Assembly (NCBI GenBank): GCA_022457155.1
Contig: JAJGOT010000357.1
Location: forward strand, 230,001 to 294,000
From: Cladopsammia gracilis
Taxonomy: Eukaryota > Cnidaria > Anthozoa > Scleractinia > Dendrophylliidae
Direction of reading: 5' to 3'
DNA: 64,000 bases
Both the position numbers and the translations under genes were made by a program. This document shows positions 46,036 to 57,544 of this stretch, in pieces. The stretch's first letter is position 1. Every line of letters begins with the position of its first letter. The notes below the pieces were generated by a model. It was given only the letters and a program-made list of their open reading frames with translations. It was not told the DNA's origin and made no database searches.

Positions 46036-46217
46036 GTTCTAACATTTGAGTCTGTGGACGAAATCCTATGGTGTGACCATTTATTTTAATAAATGAAACC
46101 TCTTCAGCAGTACTTTTGCATGGTACCATTTGTTCTAACTTTTGAGTCTGTGGACGAAATCCTATGGTGTGACCATTTAAATGAAACCTCTTCGGCAGTA
46201 ATTTCACATGGTACCAT
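46036..46217 (+). repeat. Short tandem satellite-like repeat, two units
   Basis: Two units (starts 46036 and 46132, period 96) of GTTCTAAC..TTTGAGTCTGTGGACGAAATCC...ATGGTACCATTTG. Unit two lacks about a dozen bases (TTTTAATA region). I recall similar units as dispersed satellite-like repeats in stony corals, but could not check. Confidence 0.75.
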
Positions 46218-46413
46218 TTGTTTTTCAATATTTTACAAAACGAAATTTGGGATTTTTCTTGAATTTTGATAAGGGTTAAACAGTGGCTGAAACTTAGATA
46301 CTAGGTCAAGACGAGCTGCCACGGGATAAGGAGACGCACTATAATCTATGATTACTACTAGTTTTAACATAAATACATAAGGTTTGATACTGCAGTATGG
46401 AAGGAGATGATTA
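46218..46413. other. Host flank of the 10.5-kb element
   Basis: No recognisable feature. The element begins near CACAGGG at 46414. Confidence 0.4.
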
Positions 46414-46652
46414 CACAGGGGGCCCACACAAACTGTGTGACCGTTGTTCGTATTTTTCAGTAAAGTTAGAGGAAATGTATGGGAATATCGAAAAGGTTCA
46501 CTTATCGTAATATACTGCGATGAATATTTACATACAAGATCAAACTAAACGTATTTTTACCTGAAATGTTGTGTGGTGTCATTCTTGTAGCTGTAAAACG
46601 GCGAATGTTAGTGATTTGAAGGGTTTTGCATCGGACGTTTACCTGAGCGTAT

Positions 46653-47457
46653 AGTAGAGAGACAAGGGAGGAAAGCTGGATTTTGGAACTCTCCAGCGCC
46701 GAGCCGATTTTCACCAAGAAATTCCCATCGCACGGCTTCCAAGCCCCGCACCAGGCAAGCTGAAATCCAGAGGTTTCTTCTCGTACCATTACATTTAAAA
46801 TCCGTCCAAATCTCGAAGCGCTAGACCCCAAATAATATCGAGAAATTCAGCACTCGAAGCTCGAAAACACCGCGGCTGGTAAAATCTGTGCGGCCTCCAA
46901 AAGTCACGCCGTTTGCTCCTTTTCTGATTGGATGATAACAAACAATGCCCTTTCGTAAATTTGTCTAGCGGGAGGGGAAGCAAGGGCAAATAATCAGCAA
47001 CGAACTTTACACTTACTATCCCGGGGTGAAGCGAATGGCGCATGATGGAATGAGCCCAGCAAGACGCCATTCGCTTCACCCCAGTCTGGTTAGTAGAAAG
47101 TTTGTCGCTGCTTATTCGCCCCTGCTTCCCCTCCCGCTAGACGAATTTATGAAAGGGCATTGTTTGTTATCATCCAATCAGAAAAGGAGCAAACGGCGTG
47201 ACCGTTGGAGGCCGCACAGATTTTACCAGCCGCGGTGTTTTCGAGCTTCGAATAATGAATTTCTCGATATTATTTGGGGTCTAGTGCTTCGAGTTTTGGA
47301 CGGATTTTAAATGTAATGGTACGAGAAGAAACCTCTGGGTTTCAGCTTGCCTGGTGCGGGGTTTGGAAGCCGTGTGATGGGAATTTCTTGGTGAAAATTG
47401 GCTCGGCGCTGGAGAGGTCCAAAATCAAGCTTTCCTCCCTTGTCTCTCTACTATGGT
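46653..47457. repeat. 800-bp palindrome inserted in the left inverted repeat
   Basis: Arms of about 390 bp (46653-47040 and 47062-47457) meet at a 20-bp centre near 47045. ATAGTAGAGAGACAAGGG at the outside is mirrored by CCCTTGTCTCTCTACTAT. The right terminal repeat has an uninterrupted GTATAGTAGAGTATGGTGG at the equivalent point (about 56729), so this is an insertion into the left copy only. Frames on both arms are mirror images of each other and are not taken as genes. Confidence 0.9.
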
Positions 47458-47783
47458 GGCCCATTAGTGCCATAGGGAAAAGCCATAAATTGATCATATA
47501 TTCTTGGATTTTTTTTTTAATTTTTTATTTTTTTTCATAAATTTTATTGATTTTTTTAAAATTTTATTTCATTTTTATTTTTAAATTAATTTATTTTTAT
47601 TTTTTTATCTTTTTTTTAATTCTATTTTCATTTTTTTTTTATTTTAAATTTATTTATTTTATTTTATTTTTTTTATTTTTGAATTAATTTTTTTCATTTT
47701 TTAATTAATTTATTGTGTTTTTACGGTGGCCCACAAGGGTCAAGACATAAAAAAGCACTTCACCATATAATTGTAAAACACGT

Positions 47784-48035
47784 TGCTGCAAATAAAAACG
47801 TTGCTGCAAATAAAAAAAGTTGCTGCAAATAAAAAAAGTTGCTGCAAATAAAAAAAGTTGCTGCAAATAAAAAAGTTGCTGCAAATAAAAAGTTTGCTGC
47901 AAATAAAAAGTTTGCTGCAAATAAAAAAAGTTGCTGAAAACAAAAGTTGCTGCAAATAAAAAAGTTTGCTGCAAATAAAAAAGTTGCTGCAAATAAAAAT
48001 GTTGCTGCAAACAAAAAACTTTGCTGCAAACAAAA
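47784..48035 (+). promoter_or_regulatory. TTGCTGCAAATAAAAA array upstream of the transposase
   Basis: A tandem array of 16-19-bp units ends one or two bases before the ATG at 48036. The equivalent inverse array at 55675-55905 ends about 100 bp before the HECT start. Same position before both genes suggests the promoter or transposase-binding sites. This is inference. Confidence 0.6.
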
Positions 48036-49785
48036 ATGGAGTTAGTACCCAGACTTTCTCTTGTCATGAAGACGAGGGCAGAAAGGAAGATGGCGGATGG
48101 AAGTTCGGAAAGAGAGATAATCGAACATTACTTCCATCAGGGGTACGAAAACGAAGTAATTCTCGAGTTTTTACGTGTATACCATAATTTGGAAATCAGT
48201 TTAAGTACTTTAAAGCGGCGTCTCCGTGCTTACGACTTGCGAAGAGTCGGAAATGAGGTAAATGAGGACCAAGTGAGGGATATTATCAGGCATGAAATTA
48301 ATAACGGCGGCGGATCACTGGGCTACAGAGCAATTTGGCATTCTCTAAGATTAGAACACCATATGCGTGTACCCAGACATTTAGTTGCACAGCTTGTTAA
48401 AGAAGTAGATCCTGAAGGTGTTCAACTGAGGAAGAGAAAGAGGTTTAGCAGGAGACGGTACCTTAGTTATGGCCCAAACTTCTGCTGGCATGCAGACGGT
48501 AAGTTTTGTTGCATAATCTGGGTGCGATTTTATGGTAAAATAGTCTAAAAATTAAAGCTATTTTTAAGGAAGAGGGCAAAGCCTCCATCAATAATGTATG
48601 GGGTTATACGGAAATCTTGCCGTGTTTTTCACTGTTGGCTTTGAGGTTTTGACAAATTCCGCTGAACAATTCAGTTTGGCTAAGATAACTCATCCCTACA
48701 TGTTGAAAATAAAAAGGAAAACGCCTAGAAATATGTTTATCATGTTGTTATATCTACTGCCTATGCTACTACGACTCATGCTCCCTTTCGGTCCCTTTGC
48801 TAATTTTCTCCCACTCTTTCCAGTTCTCCTTGTCTTATTGCACAGGGCCTGGTTGTTCAAAGGCTGGATAACGCTATCCACTGGATAAATCTCTATCCAG
48901 TGGAGAAGTGTTAACAAAGCAAACTATGCTATGTTATCCACTCTTTGAACAACTGGGCCCTGAACATTTGTTATCTTTTCTTCTTAGCAAATTATATGTC
49001 ATGTGCTTGCCTACACTACAGGGTATGACAAGTTAAAGCCATATGGTTTTCCAGTACATGGGGCTATTGATGGGTATAGCCGGAAAATTCTTTGGCTGGA
49101 ACTAGAAAGGTCCAATAACAAACCCGAAATACCAGCAAGATACTATCTTGAATATGTAAAGAAAGATATGAGTTGTCCAATTCTCCTGAGAACCGACTGT
49201 GGGACCGAGAACGGGATCATGGCAGCGATGCAGTGCTACTTTCGTCAAGATGGAGGAGACGAATTTGCTGGTGAGAAAGCTCATAAGTATGGATCCTCAC
49301 CAGCTAATCAAAGAATAGAATGTTGGTGGTCATTCTTTAGAAGGGGACGGGCAGGTTGGTGGATAGACTTCTTCAAGGATATGGTGGATTCTGGAATGCT
49401 TGACATTGGCAACACATTACAGATGGAGTGCTTGTGGTTTTGTTTTGAGTCTGTCTTGCAAGATGAACTACACAAAGTTAAACACCACTGGAATACGCAT
49501 CGCATTCGTCCCTCAAGACATGGCACAGTATCCGGTGTTCCTGATGTGCTGTACCATTTGCCTCAACGCTCAGGTGGTACTGAATGTAAGCATGTTGTGC
49601 AGATGCAGCAAATTGACGAAATGGAGCAGCATATTCAATGCGAGAGTACAAACGAGTCAAACATCTTCCAAGAATACTTTTATTATGTAATGGACAATGC
49701 ACATCTTGTGTTTCCATCAAATGCAGGTGAAAGTTTTGAACTATTCCAAAAGCTGATTGAGTATGCAAGTCCTTCACACACATAG
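48036..49785 (+). CDS. DDE/rve integrase-type transposase, two exons
   Basis: Exon 1 48036-48498 (donor GTAAGT at 48499), exon 2 49022-49785 (acceptor CTACAG to 49021). The joined length is 409 codons including the stop, so the frame is intact. The ATG at 48090 (MADGSSE) is an alternative start. The N-terminal 130 residues hold a helix-turn-helix region (EVILEFLRVYH ... STLKRRLRAY) and an RKRKRFSRRRY basic stretch. The catalytic triad is D154 (WHADG, at the exon boundary), D213 (RTDCGTEN) and E254 (NQRIECWW). A DGYSRKILWL strand lies after the first Asp. The protein would cut and join the element ends. The exact superfamily is uncertain: IS3-like or other rve-core DNA transposons are candidates. 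Confidence 0.9.
48844..48961. mobile_element. MITE in the transposase intron
   Basis: Ends AGGGCCTGGTTGTTCAAAG (48844) and CTTTGAACAACTGGGCCCT (to 48961) are inverted copies of 19 bp with one mismatch. The interior has further TGGATAA/TTATCCA pairs (CCACTGGATAAATC with CTATCCAGTGG). Foldback elements with GGGCCTGGTTGTTCAAA ends are widespread in marine invertebrates. It sits wholly in the intron (48499-49021) and does no harm to the gene. Confidence 0.85.
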
Positions 49786-51746
49786 ATTAATGTAAGTTAC
49801 TTGTAAAATGAGTGACATATACCACTATCAACTTTACCCTTTTAACCCCATGACAAGCTCAAAATACATATTCTCCCAACCATTCAAGGAAATATATGAA
49901 ATTGGTCTTTCAATCTGCTTTCCTTGATGCAAGCTATCAAATGTCATGTGCTCCTCACTGTATTTAATTGTTTCAAATATATATTTTTTTATATTGGCCA
50001 ACACAGTAAGGACCAGTGAGCCTTTTGCTTCAATTGGTCACATGACCTACTCATCCTAAAACTAAAAGCTTGATCTAAATGACTACCAGAATTGGAAAGA
50101 GCAACGTAAGCATGACCTTTCAGGCTGCTTTCTTTAAGGGTGAGATTTTATTGAGGCTTGTATATGCAAAATATTAGCCGTGCAAGCCTTGCCCAGGATT
50201 GATTTATAGAAAACGTCTTTGGAGAGAAAAAGAATTTAGTGGTATAAGACTATATAGCTAGAACAAATAGAAAGAGCATGAGGAAATTAGCCAGAAAAAA
50301 ATATCAGGCCACTATCCCTTAAGGGTGATATTTTATGGGAATTTCAATTCAATATTATTTGAAATATTACACGGATTTGTAGGGAGAAGCCTTTGCAGGG
50401 CAAGGCTTGCCCACATACAAATACTTCATCTACTTTAATTTCTCTATAAAATCTCACCCTTAAATGACAATGGCTAGAAAATTTGGATTTGCCTTAATTT
50501 TTATGTATATAAAATTAATTATACATGTATCCAATTTCTTATTTTGAAGGTGAGTATGTCATGTGACCAATATGATTGATACAAAAGGCAAAACAACTGT
50601 TGCAGTATAATTAGCCACCTTAAGCAGGAACTAGTTACCTGCCACTCAGCTATGCTCTTTGTTTGAATTTTAACTAAAAAATATTACCATCATTCAATAG
50701 GTTGTTAAAGCTGGCATAGTACACTAAATAGGTGACCTCCCTCTCCCCCCCCCCCCCCCCCATTAAAAAAATATAATTGTGACCCAAATCAACACTTGGA
50801 GTGAATTATGATGAGCCACTTGTGGCACTGGTATTAATGCATGCATTCTGATCTTGTGGATGGTATTCCCATAACCATTTCTCGCCGACTTTGATCTCAA
50901 ACGACATGTAGACATCACAAGGTTATAGATTGTTTGCCATAGGAAAAGCAGCCTAACTTTGTGCCTTTTTGCCCAAGGCAGGGATTGCGGCCATGGTGTA
51001 CTCTTTAACAATAAGATTACAAGCTCGAGTTTTCAGCAAAGGAATACAGGTAGTCAAGAGGTGTAGCCGAGTTCACTCTATCGCTCGTAGAAAACACGAG
51101 TGAGTGGTCCAATTGTTTTAGTACACAAAGTGATATTTCATGTAATTTTCCAACATAAATTAAGAGGGGTTTTGCTTTTTAATCTTGAATATCTTCAGCG
51201 CTACTGTTGACTATCGGCAAATTGGCACAGATGGCACAGCCAATCAAATGCCTGGATTCACAATATGCCATGGCTAGTTTTTACTAATGTAGCTTATTGT
51301 TATGGTTGTACACCTATGTAAATATTTGACTAAGGGGGGGGGGGGGAGGTTCGAGGACATGTTACAGCCCCTTTGACTACAGGATAAATGTGGGAAATGT
51401 TCTCCTGAAATTTTAAGTACCTGTTTTACTCATTTCACTTGTAAAATGCTAACTTTAAATTTGTAAAACTCTATAAACAGATGTCGGTAGGGTGAGTCGT
51501 TTGTAATACAACTTTAATGTAAACCACATATATGTGGATGTGAATGTACCTAGCTTAAAGTGATAAATATGTTGCACTTTGGTACAGGATGCAGATCCTC
51601 ACCTCTACAGTAAACAACAAAAAGAGTCATTTAATTTGAACAAACTTGAAAGTGTCAATTTTAACGAGGACATGACATTATTAATATATGTTATGTTATG
51701 TTACTGTGTTTAGCACATATAAAGGAGTGCTATGTTTATGAGCTTT
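49786..51746. other. Intergenic region between the convergent genes
   Basis: Non-coding, with a MITE (50134-50463), a C-run of about 18 at 50743-50761 and a G-run of about 14 near 51336-51348. Transcript ends of both genes must lie here. Confidence 0.5.
50134..50463. mobile_element. MITE of about 330 bp
   Basis: Ends TTAAGGGTGAGATTTTAT and ATAAAATCTCACCCTTAA are exact inverted copies. A further internal copy (TTAAGGGTGATATTTTATGG at about 50318) suggests a nested or rearranged insertion. GCAAGCCTTGCCC and GGGCAAGGCTTGCCC near the ends are also inverted. The TTAA at both ends could be the target duplication. Confidence 0.75.
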
Positions 51747-54700
51747 TCATACCAATCCAAAGCCATAACAATCACTGAGTGCAGATAACAACATGGCCTC
51801 CATTTCTTGCTCACTGTTGATATGCACAGGCAGCTTTACTAGCAGGTCGCAAGTTGAGGCAGTGGGACGGCACTGGCACCCTGGTTGGCAACCATGAATA
51901 AACCCTAAGTTGAACTTCTTTCCATAGCCAAGGGGAGGAATGCCACTGCAACCAGTCAACCATTTAAGGAAAGCAGGAATGCTGAATCCAGTTCCTATAA
52001 CAAATTTTTTTTATCTCAATATGTATTAATCTCAATACATTTGTCTGGCCATCTCTCTATTCGTGTTTTTATATTCTTGACTGCCAACTGTCAGCAGACC
52101 ATATTTCTTGATCCAAAATCCTTAGATAAATAAAAAAACAAATGTATATATGAACCTCAACTTTTCCGAGTTGAAACATTCAAATGAAACTATCTTTTTT
52201 CCAGAAAGCATGGTTCCACATATTATTTAGGACACATATGGGCTGTTATGGTTTAAATAATTAACACCACAGAAGGATCAAATAGTAATACAGTGATGCA
52301 ACACAATCTATAAGTACAGTAAGTCAAACTGTGGCTAATAATTCGTTTGGTAATTCAATGTATTCAAATGTCCTTTGCGTTAATGTCACTTGCAGTAATA
52401 TAGGATGGTATGCCAAGGCTAACCTGTGCAAACAATCATTTTAAAGTACTTACCACCTGACTCATGATGCTCTGAGGCCTGTATGAAGTCACAAAAGTAC
52501 TTATATACATCAATCTCTGCCTCTTTGCAACGCTCAGAAAGACTAAATTGTACCACAAGCTGGTCAAGGAACTCTTCGGGTGTGATGTTTACAGTAAATC
52601 CAGGCACAAAGACTGATTTCCACAAAGCAGGATGTTCTCTGGAACTGGTCAGCACATTGCATGCACTCAAGCCTTCTTCTAATTGCATGATTTGAGGCAT
52701 GCACCCTTCAAGTAGAGTCTTTATACAAATTGATCTGCAATTCACAATTACAGTAATTGGTGAGGTGCCCAAGAAAATGTTGAATGGATCTACCTTTCAA
52801 TATAAAATTTTGTATTGTGTTTAGGTATCACTGACTGAAAAGCAAACTATGAAATAGATAGATTGAATAACACTGTGAATTGATGCATTTGATTTTTGCC
52901 ACAAGACTGGGACCAAGCTTTTGTGATCTTGCAGAACCAAACAAGGAAATGTGCGCCCTTATACAGGTTAAGATAATTTTATGACATAACAGTCATGTCT
53001 GTCATTCCCTTTTTGACTAAGGTTTTGTTGTTCCTAGAGTGATGATCCATCAGGATTACTCACTGAACAATACTGCAGGAAGATGAGATGGTTTCCCTCT
53101 GTGGAACACCTTTATAACCAATCTCTTGGAGTATGTCTAGCCCTTCATCAGACATCAAGACTTCCCTGAGTATTTCATGACTTGGTGCCTCCTGCATCTA
53201 TAAAGTAGACATGCTATACTTTAAACCAGATTATCACTTCGTGATCATTCTGGACTCTCTGGAATGGATTGCACCAAGTAGCAAACATGGATACAAAGAT
53301 AAAGTTTGTTTAAATAACAGCAAACAGGTGTTTGATGCCTTAAATCAAAACAGCCAGTGATGATTCACTTAAATAGAAGTATGGTAAAAGTTGCATACTG
53401 TATTCTTTCCTCACCAACACCCTTAGTGAAACTCTAAAGATAGCCTGTACTTCTAGGCTCTTTGCAGAACCCTGTCAATCATTTAGCAAACAATGCTGCC
53501 ATCCAGCAACGTTTTTCACACAATTTTGGTCTCAAAATTGCAATCTTTAATACTAATTTTGACCTGCTCTTTTGATATCTGGCACCCATTTAGTACTAGA
53601 CAGGGTACTGCAAAGAGCCTATTATCAATGAATAATCATTACAAGGGTGCAATTATTATTCTATACATTTCCATGTACATCTTAACTACCTTGACAGCAA
53701 CTTCCCTGTAGGGAGTACTAAGCATCTTAGGACAAAGAGGCTGTTTTACCAAATATTCAAAAACACAAGAATCCAGGAAATTAGGTGCTGGTCCTCCTTG
53801 TAGAATAGACATAACCATTAGTTCTCCAGCCATCTTAAAGTCACCATCCAGTAATGTAACAGTTGAGGCCACAGGCTTCCCTGACACAAATAACTTCCTC
53901 TCAGTATGTGCCAGCATTTCTGATGACAGAATTGTAATGACAAATAAGTTCCAATTTTACTACATTTAAGAAAAAAGGGCCTCGAGGTATACAGGGGGTC
54001 TAAGTTTGATTTACTATTTACTAGCTCGTTGCCTCCCTCTGTTGAGCGGAGGGTGCCAAATTTGTGATCAAAGCATCTCTAGCCTAAAAACATTCTTGAT
54101 TATCCTCCTCTCCACCCTACTTAGTTATGCTTGTGCCCCCTGACCCAGGGCACCCAGCAGCTGTTGTGCCTCATGCAATTATCCAGACTGTCCCTCTCCT
54201 CCCCCCTAAAATTAATCCACACTGCCATCGTCATGTTAGCCATCAAGCAAAAGGCTACCATACCTTTTCATGAATCAGGCCATAAATAATTGAATGGATC
54301 CACAGAAGAAAACAAAAACACTCCACTGTACACAAATACAGAGATTCAAAACAAAGGATGTTGGTTCGTGGATAATGCAAGCACTTTTAGTTACCTGAAA
54401 AAAATTCCCTTCTGGGTCCACCCTCATCAACTGCTGGTTCTCCCAGAAACACCACTCGTATCTTATCCCGTGGAGTAATATTGAACTTCTTTCTGGCCTG
54501 TTTGAAATCCAACCATATATGCCTCCTGCGAATGCTCACACGGACTTCCTTTTCAGACAAATGTTGCTGTCGCAATTCTTCAAGGATGGAATGCAAGTTG
54601 TCTGGACTGTTGATACTTGCAGTTCCTATAGAGGTGTTGTCAGTGAATGTTTCTTCAGCTGTGGGAGGTGGATTTTTAGGCACTTCTGTTGAACTTGGAG

Positions 54701-55577
54701 TGGCCTCATCTTCCACCTCTCCAATCCACATATCAACACAAGAATCCGCATGGTCAGCAATTGTAGCCAACGGAAAGTACTGACAGCATACAGGGCACTC
54801 AACTTGTTTGAGGTTGGATTCCTCTCGTGTAACATGTGCATATTCGCCATCTTTGACGATGTTGACCTCTTCACCTTCATTTTTGGACGTTTGAGGTGTT
54901 TTAGCCAGTAAAGTAGGCACTAATAACTCCTTACCCGATCCGCTGGATTCATCATCAGAAGACAGTTCTTGGGCACACATTTCACTCAATTCATCCAATG
55001 TGGCATCGGTAATATCAGACTTTGGGGCGATATACAATGTCACTCGGCTGAAGCTCTTTCCAATTTCGTCCTTGTATTTACTGAGCACAAAGAGGTCACT
55101 GGAGCCTGGCAAGGTTTCTACTTCTGTACCGTCTGGGTAAAGAAGGGCATAATTTATACCTCTAAGCATGTTTCTGTCGTGGTTCGCATGCTTTTCCACA
55201 GCTCTTTCTAGTATCACCTCTCGTGTCGCTTCTGGAGAAACACTTAACGGCAAATTGCGTCCCCTGCAGGATTTTAAGGTGCCATTAACATACCTCATCA
55301 CGCCAATATTAACAGTGACATCTTTCTGTTCTTTCTTGGCATACTTCTTAACCTTGAAGTGTTCCTTTCGGCTATCCGCCTTTCGTTTCATAAATTGTTG
55401 GAAGCTTACAGTGTTAGTGGGGGTCTTCTTTGACTGTTGACCATGGCCAGCACTTGTCCCTGCAGAGCCGGTTCCTTCTTTAGAGGATGCTAGAACACCA
55501 GACTGCAAGCAATTCCCACATACACAGCAATATTTGGCGTCGTTTGTGGCTTGTTTGCCACAGCGGCTGCAAAACAT
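51747..55577 (-). CDS. HECT-type E3 ubiquitin ligase, five exons, transposon-borne
   Basis: Exons on the minus strand: 54395-55577, 53690-53919, 53064-53197, 52454-52734 and 51747-51994. All have GT-AG borders. The sum is 2076 bp, or 691 residues plus stop, with no damage. An N-terminal zinc ribbon (C3, C6, C17/18, C20, C23), a UBZ-like finger (CPVC ... HADSC, about residues 265-285) and a HECT domain in the last 330 residues (AVDEGGPRREFF; MSILQGGPAP; catalytic Cys in ASTCDLLVKLP) are visible. The start at 55577 is chosen because it begins the zinc ribbon; the frame is open to 55667. It resembles G2E3-like ligases. The likely role is ubiquitination of a host or transposase target, but this is unknown. 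Confidence 0.92.
53456..53619. mobile_element. Mariner-type MITE with TA duplication
   Basis: GGCTCTTTGCAG(A)ACCCTGTC and its inverse (one mismatch) bound 164 bp in a HECT-gene intron. TA flanks both ends (53454-53455 and 53620-53621), as for Tc1/mariner elements. Confidence 0.75.
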
Positions 55578-55667
55578 GGCGTCGAAATCGGCGTCCAGTC
55601 GAGGGATTTCGAGGCGGGAAAAAAGAGAAAGACTGGGTTCAAGATCCGGGGATCCGGCTTGCAGCAC
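55578..55667 (-). promoter_or_regulatory. Leader of the HECT gene
   Basis: Between the right array and the chosen ATG the frame is open (alternative ATG at 55667), so a 30-residue longer product is possible. The sequence has no recognised motif beyond the adjoining array. Confidence 0.4.
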
Positions 55668-55964
55668 GCCTTTTTATTTACAGCAACTTTTTTGTTTGCA
55701 GCAACGTTTTTATTTGCAGCAACGTTTTTATTTGCAGCAACGTTTTTATTTGCAGCAACTTTTTTTATTTGCAGCAACGTTTTTTATTTGCAGCAACTTT
55801 TTTATTTGCAGCAAACTTTTTATTTGCAGCAACTTTTTTATTTGCAGCAACTTTTTTGTTTGCAGCAACGTTTTTATTTGCAGCAACTTTTTTATTTGCA
55901 GCAACGTGTTTTACAATTATATGGTGAAGTGCTTTTTTATGTCTTGACCCTTGTGGGCCACCGT

Positions 55965-56041
55965 ACGTTTTCATTTTTTTATTTTTATTAGCCGGAAAAT
56001 AAAAACAAAAAAAAAAAAAATGAGCATGGCCCATGAGTGCC

Positions 56042-56083
<42 letters not shown>

Positions 56084-56465
56084 CGGCCCAGGCGTGCCAT
56101 AGCCCATGATGCATTGTGGTTGACTGAGTACTTCAACATGGCGGCGGCATGTTTCGTGGTTGACTTTTTGTTCAAAATCTGAGAATAAGCCCACGTTTTC
56201 TCATAGTTTAATATGTCTTCGAAGAGAAAAAAGGAGTGGCTTGAATTTGAGAGAAAGAATGCGAAAAAAAGAACAGGGAAAAGAGATGATGCCGCCGTAC
56301 CAAGTGACTTCATAACAGTGCAAAGGTTGTCATCCAATGTTGAGGGCAAGTGTCAGAAATATTCGAGCATAGGGCCGCTCACTATGGTTCCACTGGGAAA
56401 AGAAGCAACGTTAGTTTTTTTTGTTTTTATTTTCCGGCTAATAAAAATAAAAAGATGAAAACACA
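55965..56465. mobile_element. Nested element carrying an exon
   Basis: GTTTTCATTTTTTTATTTTTATTAGCCGG (from about 55968) and its near-complement CCGGCTAATAAAAATAAAAAGATGAAAAC (to about 56463) flank about 430 bp. This lies exactly where the left repeat is uninterrupted (TTATTGTGTTTTTACGGTGG). Inside are two more GGCCCA..(A/G)(C/T)GTGCCA words (about 56028 and 56083) with long A-runs, and a 5'-UTR-like exon region. It is probably a non-autonomous relative inserted in the right repeat. Confidence 0.75.
56213..56411 (+). CDS. Orphan first exon inside the nested element
   Basis: ATG at 56213 opens a 66-codon stretch (MSSKRKKEWLEFERKN ..., basic) ending at a plausible donor (CAAC|GTTAGT at 56411). 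A short upstream reading frame begins at 56138 (ATGGCGGCGGC). Beyond the donor the element's terminal repeat begins, so no further exon is attached. It looks like the start of a captured or ancestral gene of this transposon family. It does not match the start of the HECT gene in this element. Confidence 0.5.
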
Positions 56466-56967
56466 ATAAATTAATTAAAAAATGAAAAAAATTAATTCAA
56501 AAATAAAAAAAAATTAAAAAAAAATAAATTTAAAATAAAAAAAAATTAAAAATAGAATTAAAAAAACAGATAAAAAAATAAAAATAAATTAATTTAAAAA
56601 TAAAAATGAAATAAAATTTTAAAAAAATCAATAAAATTTATTAAAAAAAATAAAAAATTAAAAAACAAATCCAAGAATATATGATCAATTTATGGCTTTT
56701 CCCTATGGCACTAATGGGCCACCATACTCTACTATACGCTCAGGTAAACGTCCGATGCAAAACCCTTCAAATCGCTAAAATTCGCCGTTTTCAGCTACAA
56801 GAATGACACCACACAACATTTCAGGTAAAAATACGTTTAGTTTGATCTTGTATGTAAATATTCATCGCAGTATATTACGATAAGTGAACCTTTTCGATAT
56901 TCCCATACATTTCCTCTAACTTTAAAAATACGAACAACGGTCACACAGTTTGTGTGGGCTCCCTGTG

Positions 56968-57187: not shown

Positions 57188-57544
57188 TGGAGTCTGGGTT
57201 TTGGTCGAGGGTCGAGTGTCGAGGGTAACATGTCGAGGGTCGAGGGTAACATGTCGAGGGTCGAGGGTAACATGTCGAGGGTCGAGGGTACAAAGTCGAG
57301 GGTCGAGGGTAACATGTCGAGGGTCGAGGGTACAAAGTCGAGGGTCGTAAAATCTTTTTTTTTTTTCCGGTTTCTTTTTTCCCATCTCGCAATCTTCATG
57401 TCTGTAAGACGTAGGTAGCGTAGCTCGCGCGATATAAATTTCGAAGGAAATAAAGGGTGTTGACAGGCCTAGCACAAATCCTACTAGTGCGTGGTGTGGT
57501 TGTTGAGACCTTTGTTCACTCGGTTTTTTTTGCTGGTTTGTTTT

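Follow-up and report, generated by a model that had tools for sequence, protein, structure and literature searches.

Transposons of the IS3EU group are described in PMC10045372 as having TA..TA ends, usually flanked by 6-bp target duplications, and as lacking an HHCC motif. In the fungal IS3EU families that bear a TET/JBP gene, the ends are given as TAYGG..CCRTA and the TET/JBP gene is placed between oppositely facing transposase and alpha-kinase genes (PMC12730594). A second relevant system is Ginger1, for which OTU or Ulp1 protease domains have been described and whose authors proposed a part for the ubiquitin system in transposition (PMC2836005); its target duplication is given as 4 bp (PMC10045372). 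In this study, we analysed a stretch of 64,000 nucleotides from the coral Cladopsammia gracilis (contig JAJGOT010000357.1, positions 230,001 to 294,000; hereafter the window), in which a DDE integrase gene and a HECT ubiquitin ligase gene lie side by side. We suggest, with a probability of roughly 0.78, that the two genes belong to a recently active IS3EU transposon, which has an E3 ligase as its regular second gene, and that this ligase most likely acts in trans.

The genome searched was the window's own 878-Mb assembly, in which the window falls on contig C1004. Copies were located by an integrase search, and the window was then aligned to the five others found, giving six integrase copies that are 99-100% identical over exon 2. 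In all five, the sequence shared with the window ends, to within a few bases, at 47722 and 55965, and this 8,244-bp DNA transposon of the IS3EU type (47722..55965, forward strand), with TACGG..CCGTA ends common to the five other copies, contains both genes. The end type of the family is TACGGTGGCCCA, flanked by 6-bp target duplications; all six copies fit TACGGTGGCCCACAAGGG...CCCTTGTGGGCCACC[G/A]TA. Five of them, including that of the window, read TACGGTGGCCC..GGGCCACCGTA, and C283 terminates in ACCATA, which still conforms to CCRTA. The target duplications are perfect in the five other copies (CCTTAA, CTTATG, ATTTTC, ATTTTG and ATATCT) and agree in five of six letters in the window, where TGTTTT (47716..47721) on the left faces CGTTTT (55966..55971) on the right. 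The terminal inverted repeats at 47722..47816 (+) and 55871..55965 (-) match at 94 of 95 positions, and a subterminal tandem array of units of about 18 bp (GTTGCTGCAAATAAAAA) at approximately 47776..48034 (+) has its inverted counterpart at approximately 55659..55911 (-). Since the copies are 98.1-99.7% identical to one another, transposition must have been recent. The integrase gene is open in four of the six full copies and so is the HECT gene, if C283 with its lost GT splice donor is counted; the HECT gene of C1377 has a stop and that of C1269 extra sequence. A query with the terminal repeat returned 25 ends, which by their coordinates pair into the six full two-gene elements, four short elements (both family ends 1.3-2.0 kb apart, with no gene match listed there) and five single ends. 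The two-gene element is an autonomous-looking, recently active IS3EU-type transposon with borders at 47722 and 55965.

The integrase gene is spliced, with a canonical GT/AG intron and no internal stop. Exon 1 (48036..48498, +) encodes an HTH_21-like region and the first catalytic D, shortly before the junction, and exon 2 (49022..49785, +, stop included) encodes the rva_4 core with the other two catalytic residues. The D-D-E triad of which an earlier note on this DNA had spoken is indeed present, as D154, D213 and E254, and the predicted transposase is of the DD40E integrase type. A relationship to DDE enzymes of the IS3/IS481 type is indicated by a Pfam match to rva_4 (1.6e-25) and by one to HTH_21 that lies under its cut-off (2e-4); HTH_21 is a domain of bacterial IS3-type proteins. 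Exon 1 has a single Cys upstream of the first catalytic D, leaving no room for an HHCC motif, as in IS3EU. As for Ginger1, the duplications are 6 bp long rather than 4 bp and Pfam gave no OTU or Ulp1 match in the integrase. PF13240 or PF12773, both zinc ribbons, occurs in 10 of 120 listed database relatives of the integrase, among them P0049, with its MFCSSCG... N-terminus. As a zinc ribbon of the MFCxxCG type is thus common to some IS3EU-type integrases and to the HECT proteins, the two genes may share a module. The closest named relatives of both proteins are mostly from corals or other anthozoans (Porites, Stylophora, Montipora, Acropora, Oculina, Dendronephthya and Paramuricea), with a priapulid and fishes lower in the list of HECT relatives. 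A query of viral contigs with the integrase P0041 led to no confirmed related locus.

The HECT gene (55577-51747) runs on the reverse strand, convergent with the integrase gene, and is intact in the window, encoding 691 residues in five exons with canonical GT/AG introns and no internal stop. For both strands this bears out the earlier description of two convergent spliced genes that keep their frame. Exon 1 (54395..55577, -) encodes a zinc ribbon, a beta-grasp domain of ubiquitin-like fold (residues 84-202; 54972..55328, -), a C2HC motif resembling the UBZ finger of WRNIP1/RAD18 but below the cut-off (54735..54806, -) and the start of the HECT N-lobe. Exons 2 (53690..53919), 3 (53064..53197) and 4 (52454..52734), all on the reverse strand, are followed by exon 5 (51747..51994, -), which encodes the C-lobe and Cys658, the catalytic residue, whose codon lies at 51849..51851 (-) in the motif PTASTCD. 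That the HECT domain is complete with its catalytic Cys, as had also been noted earlier, agrees with the Pfam match of the C-lobe to PF00632 (1e-8) and with the match of both lobes to AREL1 (PDB). The predicted structure of the homologue P0003 has a HECT fold (Foldseek E 9.9e-12 to Smurf2). By sequence and model, the ligase is predicted to carry a zinc ribbon, a beta-grasp domain and a UBZ-like motif in its N-terminal part, ahead of a full HECT domain. The order zinc ribbon, beta-grasp, HECT is also seen in the exon 1 alignment (A1) with fish and coral proteins, some of which, such as P0004 and P0013, miss the ribbon or a part of it; with proteins annotated as 'G2/M phase-specific E3 ubiquitin-protein ligase' in these animals, the alignment covers the greater part of the N-terminal architecture.

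The HECT gene shows signs of purifying selection among the copies. Scored against the majority base, and on the basis of few changes in related and partly damaged copies, the six HECT genes differ by 19 synonymous and 22 non-synonymous changes, for a ratio of non-synonymous to synonymous change (pN/pS) of 0.38 (one-sided p 0.002), and the six integrase genes by 11 and 11 (pN/pS 0.31, p 0.006). Variable positions make up 2.0% of the HECT and 1.8% of the integrase coding sequence, as against 3.8% of the internal noncoding sequence. Selection on the ligase across copies, which the earlier note had suggested should be measured, thus comes out as purifying.

The pairing of the two genes extends far beyond this family. 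For the genome-wide counts, which are lower bounds as only the best candidates were scored, the HECT queries were window exon 1 (109 matches), the distant gene of C409 (83) and window exons 2-5 (132); dropping matches to the N-terminal part only, 26, 75 and 132 of these, respectively, were kept as evidence of a HECT domain. The integrase loci number 156 and derive from two queries, with 150 listed matches and nine loci added by eye. Of 152 HECT-domain loci, 93 have an integrase locus at a distance of up to 10 kb, against a chance expectation of 0.54; the two genes are convergent in 92 of these cases and otherwise arranged in one. Seen from the other gene, 91 of the 156 integrase loci are paired with a HECT-domain locus within 10 kb; when any evidence of a second gene is counted, including a kinase-type query, the figure rises to 110, or to 115 if the limit is set at 15 kb, and 85 of the 97 longest loci are paired. 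Open-frame matches to the second gene or its HECT part were also seen at C203:593189, C1246:130718, C1219:28429 and C1199:121392-131205, with no listed integrase within 15 kb; these lone loci may represent decayed elements, transposons of another kind or domesticated genes.

We then compared the flanks, rather than the full interiors, of ten diverged elements, whose integrases are 48-57% identical to that of the window. Ends of the TACGGTGGCCCA type with a perfect 6-bp duplication are present in seven of them (C809, C335, C1097, C308, C585, C987 and C737); C1206 has both ends and no matching duplication, C643 the left end only and C21 no ends. A HECT-domain match stands beside the integrase and between the perfectly duplicated ends in C809, C335, C1097, C308, C585 and C737, while in C987 only the N-terminal part of the second gene was matched and the HECT domain was seen in its relative C1342. 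In C2 and C409, with integrases 39-41% identical to the window's, a HECT domain again lies inside ends with perfect duplications (TGTTAC and CTTTTC), so that the diverged elements with this arrangement come to eight. C595 has a convergent HECT gene and a left-end-like site only, its right end lying outside the stretch examined. The Pfam HECT scores are 20.2 bits for C2 and 23.2 for C409, just under the cut-off of 23.9, and 33.3 for C595, which is over it. The C2 element overlaps the edge of a long open frame with C2H2 zinc fingers (L065, 6670-8802). With the first query, none of 33 of the most distant integrases (38-45% identity) had appeared to have a HECT gene; the idea that these lack one was ruled out by the diverged HECT genes of C2, C409 and C595 and by the kinase of C1279. 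The ligase is transposon cargo, and more widely so than the earlier note had stated: it recurs in each of the six full copies, where its lack would have counted against that idea, at many diverged integrase loci and in the eight diverged elements with perfect duplications.

In one family the catalytic part of the second gene is of a different kind. In the C1279/C975 family, the second gene has an N-terminal domain similar to the one encoded by the HECT gene of C2 (BLASTP 2e-10), and a protein kinase domain (1.5e-40) comes after it. In C1279 the kinase spans two reading frames and is, from strand and spacing, presumed to form one spliced gene with the N-terminal part. The two copies of this variant that were checked both have TACCGTGGCC ends and perfect duplications (CGCACG and TGTATG). 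The family comprises L067 (C1279), C975, C1307, C1270, C263 and others, and its second gene also gave a weak immunoglobulin-like match; the N-terminal part has a relative in Oculina patagonica with 75% identity. Between the window type and the C2/C409/C1279/C595 type, the similarity of the N-terminal domains is weak (probability 52% in a profile comparison). The alpha-kinase of fungal IS3EU may be a parallel to such an exchangeable catalytic domain.

Several findings weigh against this reading. At least one gene is damaged in three of the six full copies; a broken integrase copy that is 88% identical (C1284) has neither ends nor a HECT match within the 20 kb examined, and HECT pieces of the window type stand alone at C1420 and C583. 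Genome-wide, 59 of the 152 HECT-domain loci lack a listed integrase at up to 10 kb, and over the same distance a second-gene match is missing for 46 of the 156 integrase loci. In the N-terminal part, the UBZ-like motif falls under the Pfam cut-off, and none of the fold matches of the beta-grasp domain reached a Foldseek E below 0.001. Over 13 elements, integrase distances and distances of exon 1 of the HECT gene gave a Mantel r of 0.74 (p 0.0003), a value inflated by the near-duplicate pair C176/C1020; without C1020 the fair value is r 0.34 (p 0.01), a modest agreement. The integrase of the window is nearest to those of C176/C1020 (66%) and its HECT protein is not (29-33%); therefore it is possible that the second gene has been exchanged between families.

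If the second gene is a regular partner of the transposase, how might it serve the element? The DD40E transposase would, judging from its family, mobilise the element at the observed TACGG..CCGTA ends and give rise to the 6-bp duplications. The ligase would act in trans: its N-terminal part could dock on a host protein or on a protein of the transpososome, and Cys658 would then pass ubiquitin to the docked protein, removing a repressor or tuning the repair of the break made by transposition. Two targets are likely: a factor of the host, be it a repressor or a repair protein, or else the integrase of the element. That a kinase takes the slot of the HECT domain behind a related N-terminal domain suggests that reaching targets of one general kind counts for more than any particular chemistry, and it favours a recruiting N-terminal part combined with a catalytic domain that can be exchanged.

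The ligase might instead regulate its own element, by ubiquitinating the integrase or competing for it and so limiting or timing transposition, rather than by acting on host factors. This would be consistent with the regular pairing and the convergent layout of the two genes, and the MFCxxCG zinc ribbon in some integrases and in the ligase makes a common partner possible; the replacement of the ligase by a kinase speaks against it, although that is compatible with either view, and overall we consider self-regulation rather unlikely. That the HECT gene is a passive passenger, captured and carried without benefit to the element, appears improbable to us. The incomplete agreement between integrase and HECT distances, which allows that cargo may have been swapped, would fit with it, but the purifying selection on the HECT gene is similar to that on the integrase, the gene is found in all six full copies, and its orientation is nearly fixed (92/93) over a deep divergence.

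According to the earlier note, both genes belong to one transposon bounded by the matched repeats at 46414 and 56967. The inverted repeats at these positions exist, and they belong to a different element, since all five other copies stop at 47722 and 55965. Three transposons are nested here, and only the innermost contains the genes. The two-gene element was inserted into a middle element (47452..56726) with short IS3EU-type ends, TATGGTGGCCCATTAGTGCC, and a perfect CTCTAC duplication on both sides, whose empty site is seen in L069; this middle element is short and non-autonomous, and holds an open frame, 65 codons long or longer, beginning MSSKRKKEWLEFERKNAKK. The outermost host is a repeat with CACAGGG ends (46414..56967), to which a hairpin with 390-bp arms (46651..47454) belongs. 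L069:66-1333 is a 1,268-bp palindromic copy of this outer repeat, the counterpart of the hairpin included, and is bordered on either side by the 7-bp sequence CTGTGAG. The earlier note had proposed to look in this genome for elements with both genes between CACAGGG repeats; none of the five other full copies has these repeats. Among the 45 listed genome matches of the outer repeat, ten end pairs, paired by coordinates, are only 0.3-1.3 kb apart and two are 3.6 kb apart, the pair of the window spanning 10.6 kb. Real and matched as these repeats are, the CACAGGG repeat is unrelated to the two-gene element, and a single transposon with these outer borders is next to impossible in view of such short pairs, of the other copies and of the empty site of the middle element. 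Hardly more credible is an ordinary host HECT gene beside which an integrase element landed by chance, as in six near-identical copies at six places the gene is always enclosed by the same ends and by target duplications, even if some relatives may be free-standing, as the HECT-domain loci without a neighbouring integrase would allow. Directly outside the outer repeat lies a 21-bp tandem array, GTCGAGGGTAACATGTCGAGG (57190-57357), and the stretch to the left of the outer repeat (46130-46271) has a 74% match at an unrelated place on C1385.

A transposon with the ligase as its regular second gene may also be of wider consequence. Because most of the architecture is common to them, many of the fish and coral proteins annotated as 'G2/M-specific E3 ligase-like' are likely candidates for a transposon origin. 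Whether animal IS3EU elements in general carry a modular gene for host manipulation, with a conserved recruiting N-terminus (beta-grasp in the HECT type) and an exchangeable catalytic domain (HECT in most of the families seen, a protein kinase in one), and are the source of many of these coral and fish genes, seems to us evenly balanced. A selected ligase as regular partner of a transposase would link the success of a transposon directly to the ubiquitin system of its host. It would also point to a specific origin that a large and puzzling gene family of aquatic animals could have had, many of whose annotated E3 ligases may be transposon genes, and in the swap for a kinase nature would provide an experiment on how the cargo has to act on its target. 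Passenger genes in fungal IS3EU are already known. The words 'HECT' and 'ubiquitin' are absent from the main text of PMC10045372 and PMC12730594, and no report of HECT in IS3EU was found among the titles and abstract openings listed for the literature searched, to which Repbase and subscription journals did not belong.

Compared with the known systems, the element of the window resembles IS3EU as described in PMC10045372 and PMC12730594 in its TAYGG..CCRTA ends, its 6-bp duplications, its integrase-like DDE transposase without HHCC and its terminal inverted repeats of more than 30 bp. Its second gene runs opposite to the transposase gene, like the alpha-kinase gene of fungal IS3EU, whereas the TET-bearing fungal families described there carry an alpha-kinase and a TET/JBP gene and not a HECT gene (PMC12730594). 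The ligase shares its HECT domain and catalytic Cys with AREL1, HUWE1 and Smurf, which are host proteins whose N-terminal parts are not matched by the window protein. With the 'G2/M phase-specific E3 ubiquitin-protein ligase(-like)' proteins of corals and fish it has the order of zinc ribbon, beta-grasp and HECT in common, as seen in most of those aligned; these are annotated as host genes, in contrast to the transposon gene of the window. Like Ginger1, finally, the element is an integrase-type transposon tied to the ubiquitin/SUMO system; however, in Ginger1 as described in PMC2836005 the tie consists of proteases fused to the transposase, which remove ubiquitin or SUMO, whereas in the window it is a separate gene whose product is predicted to attach ubiquitin.

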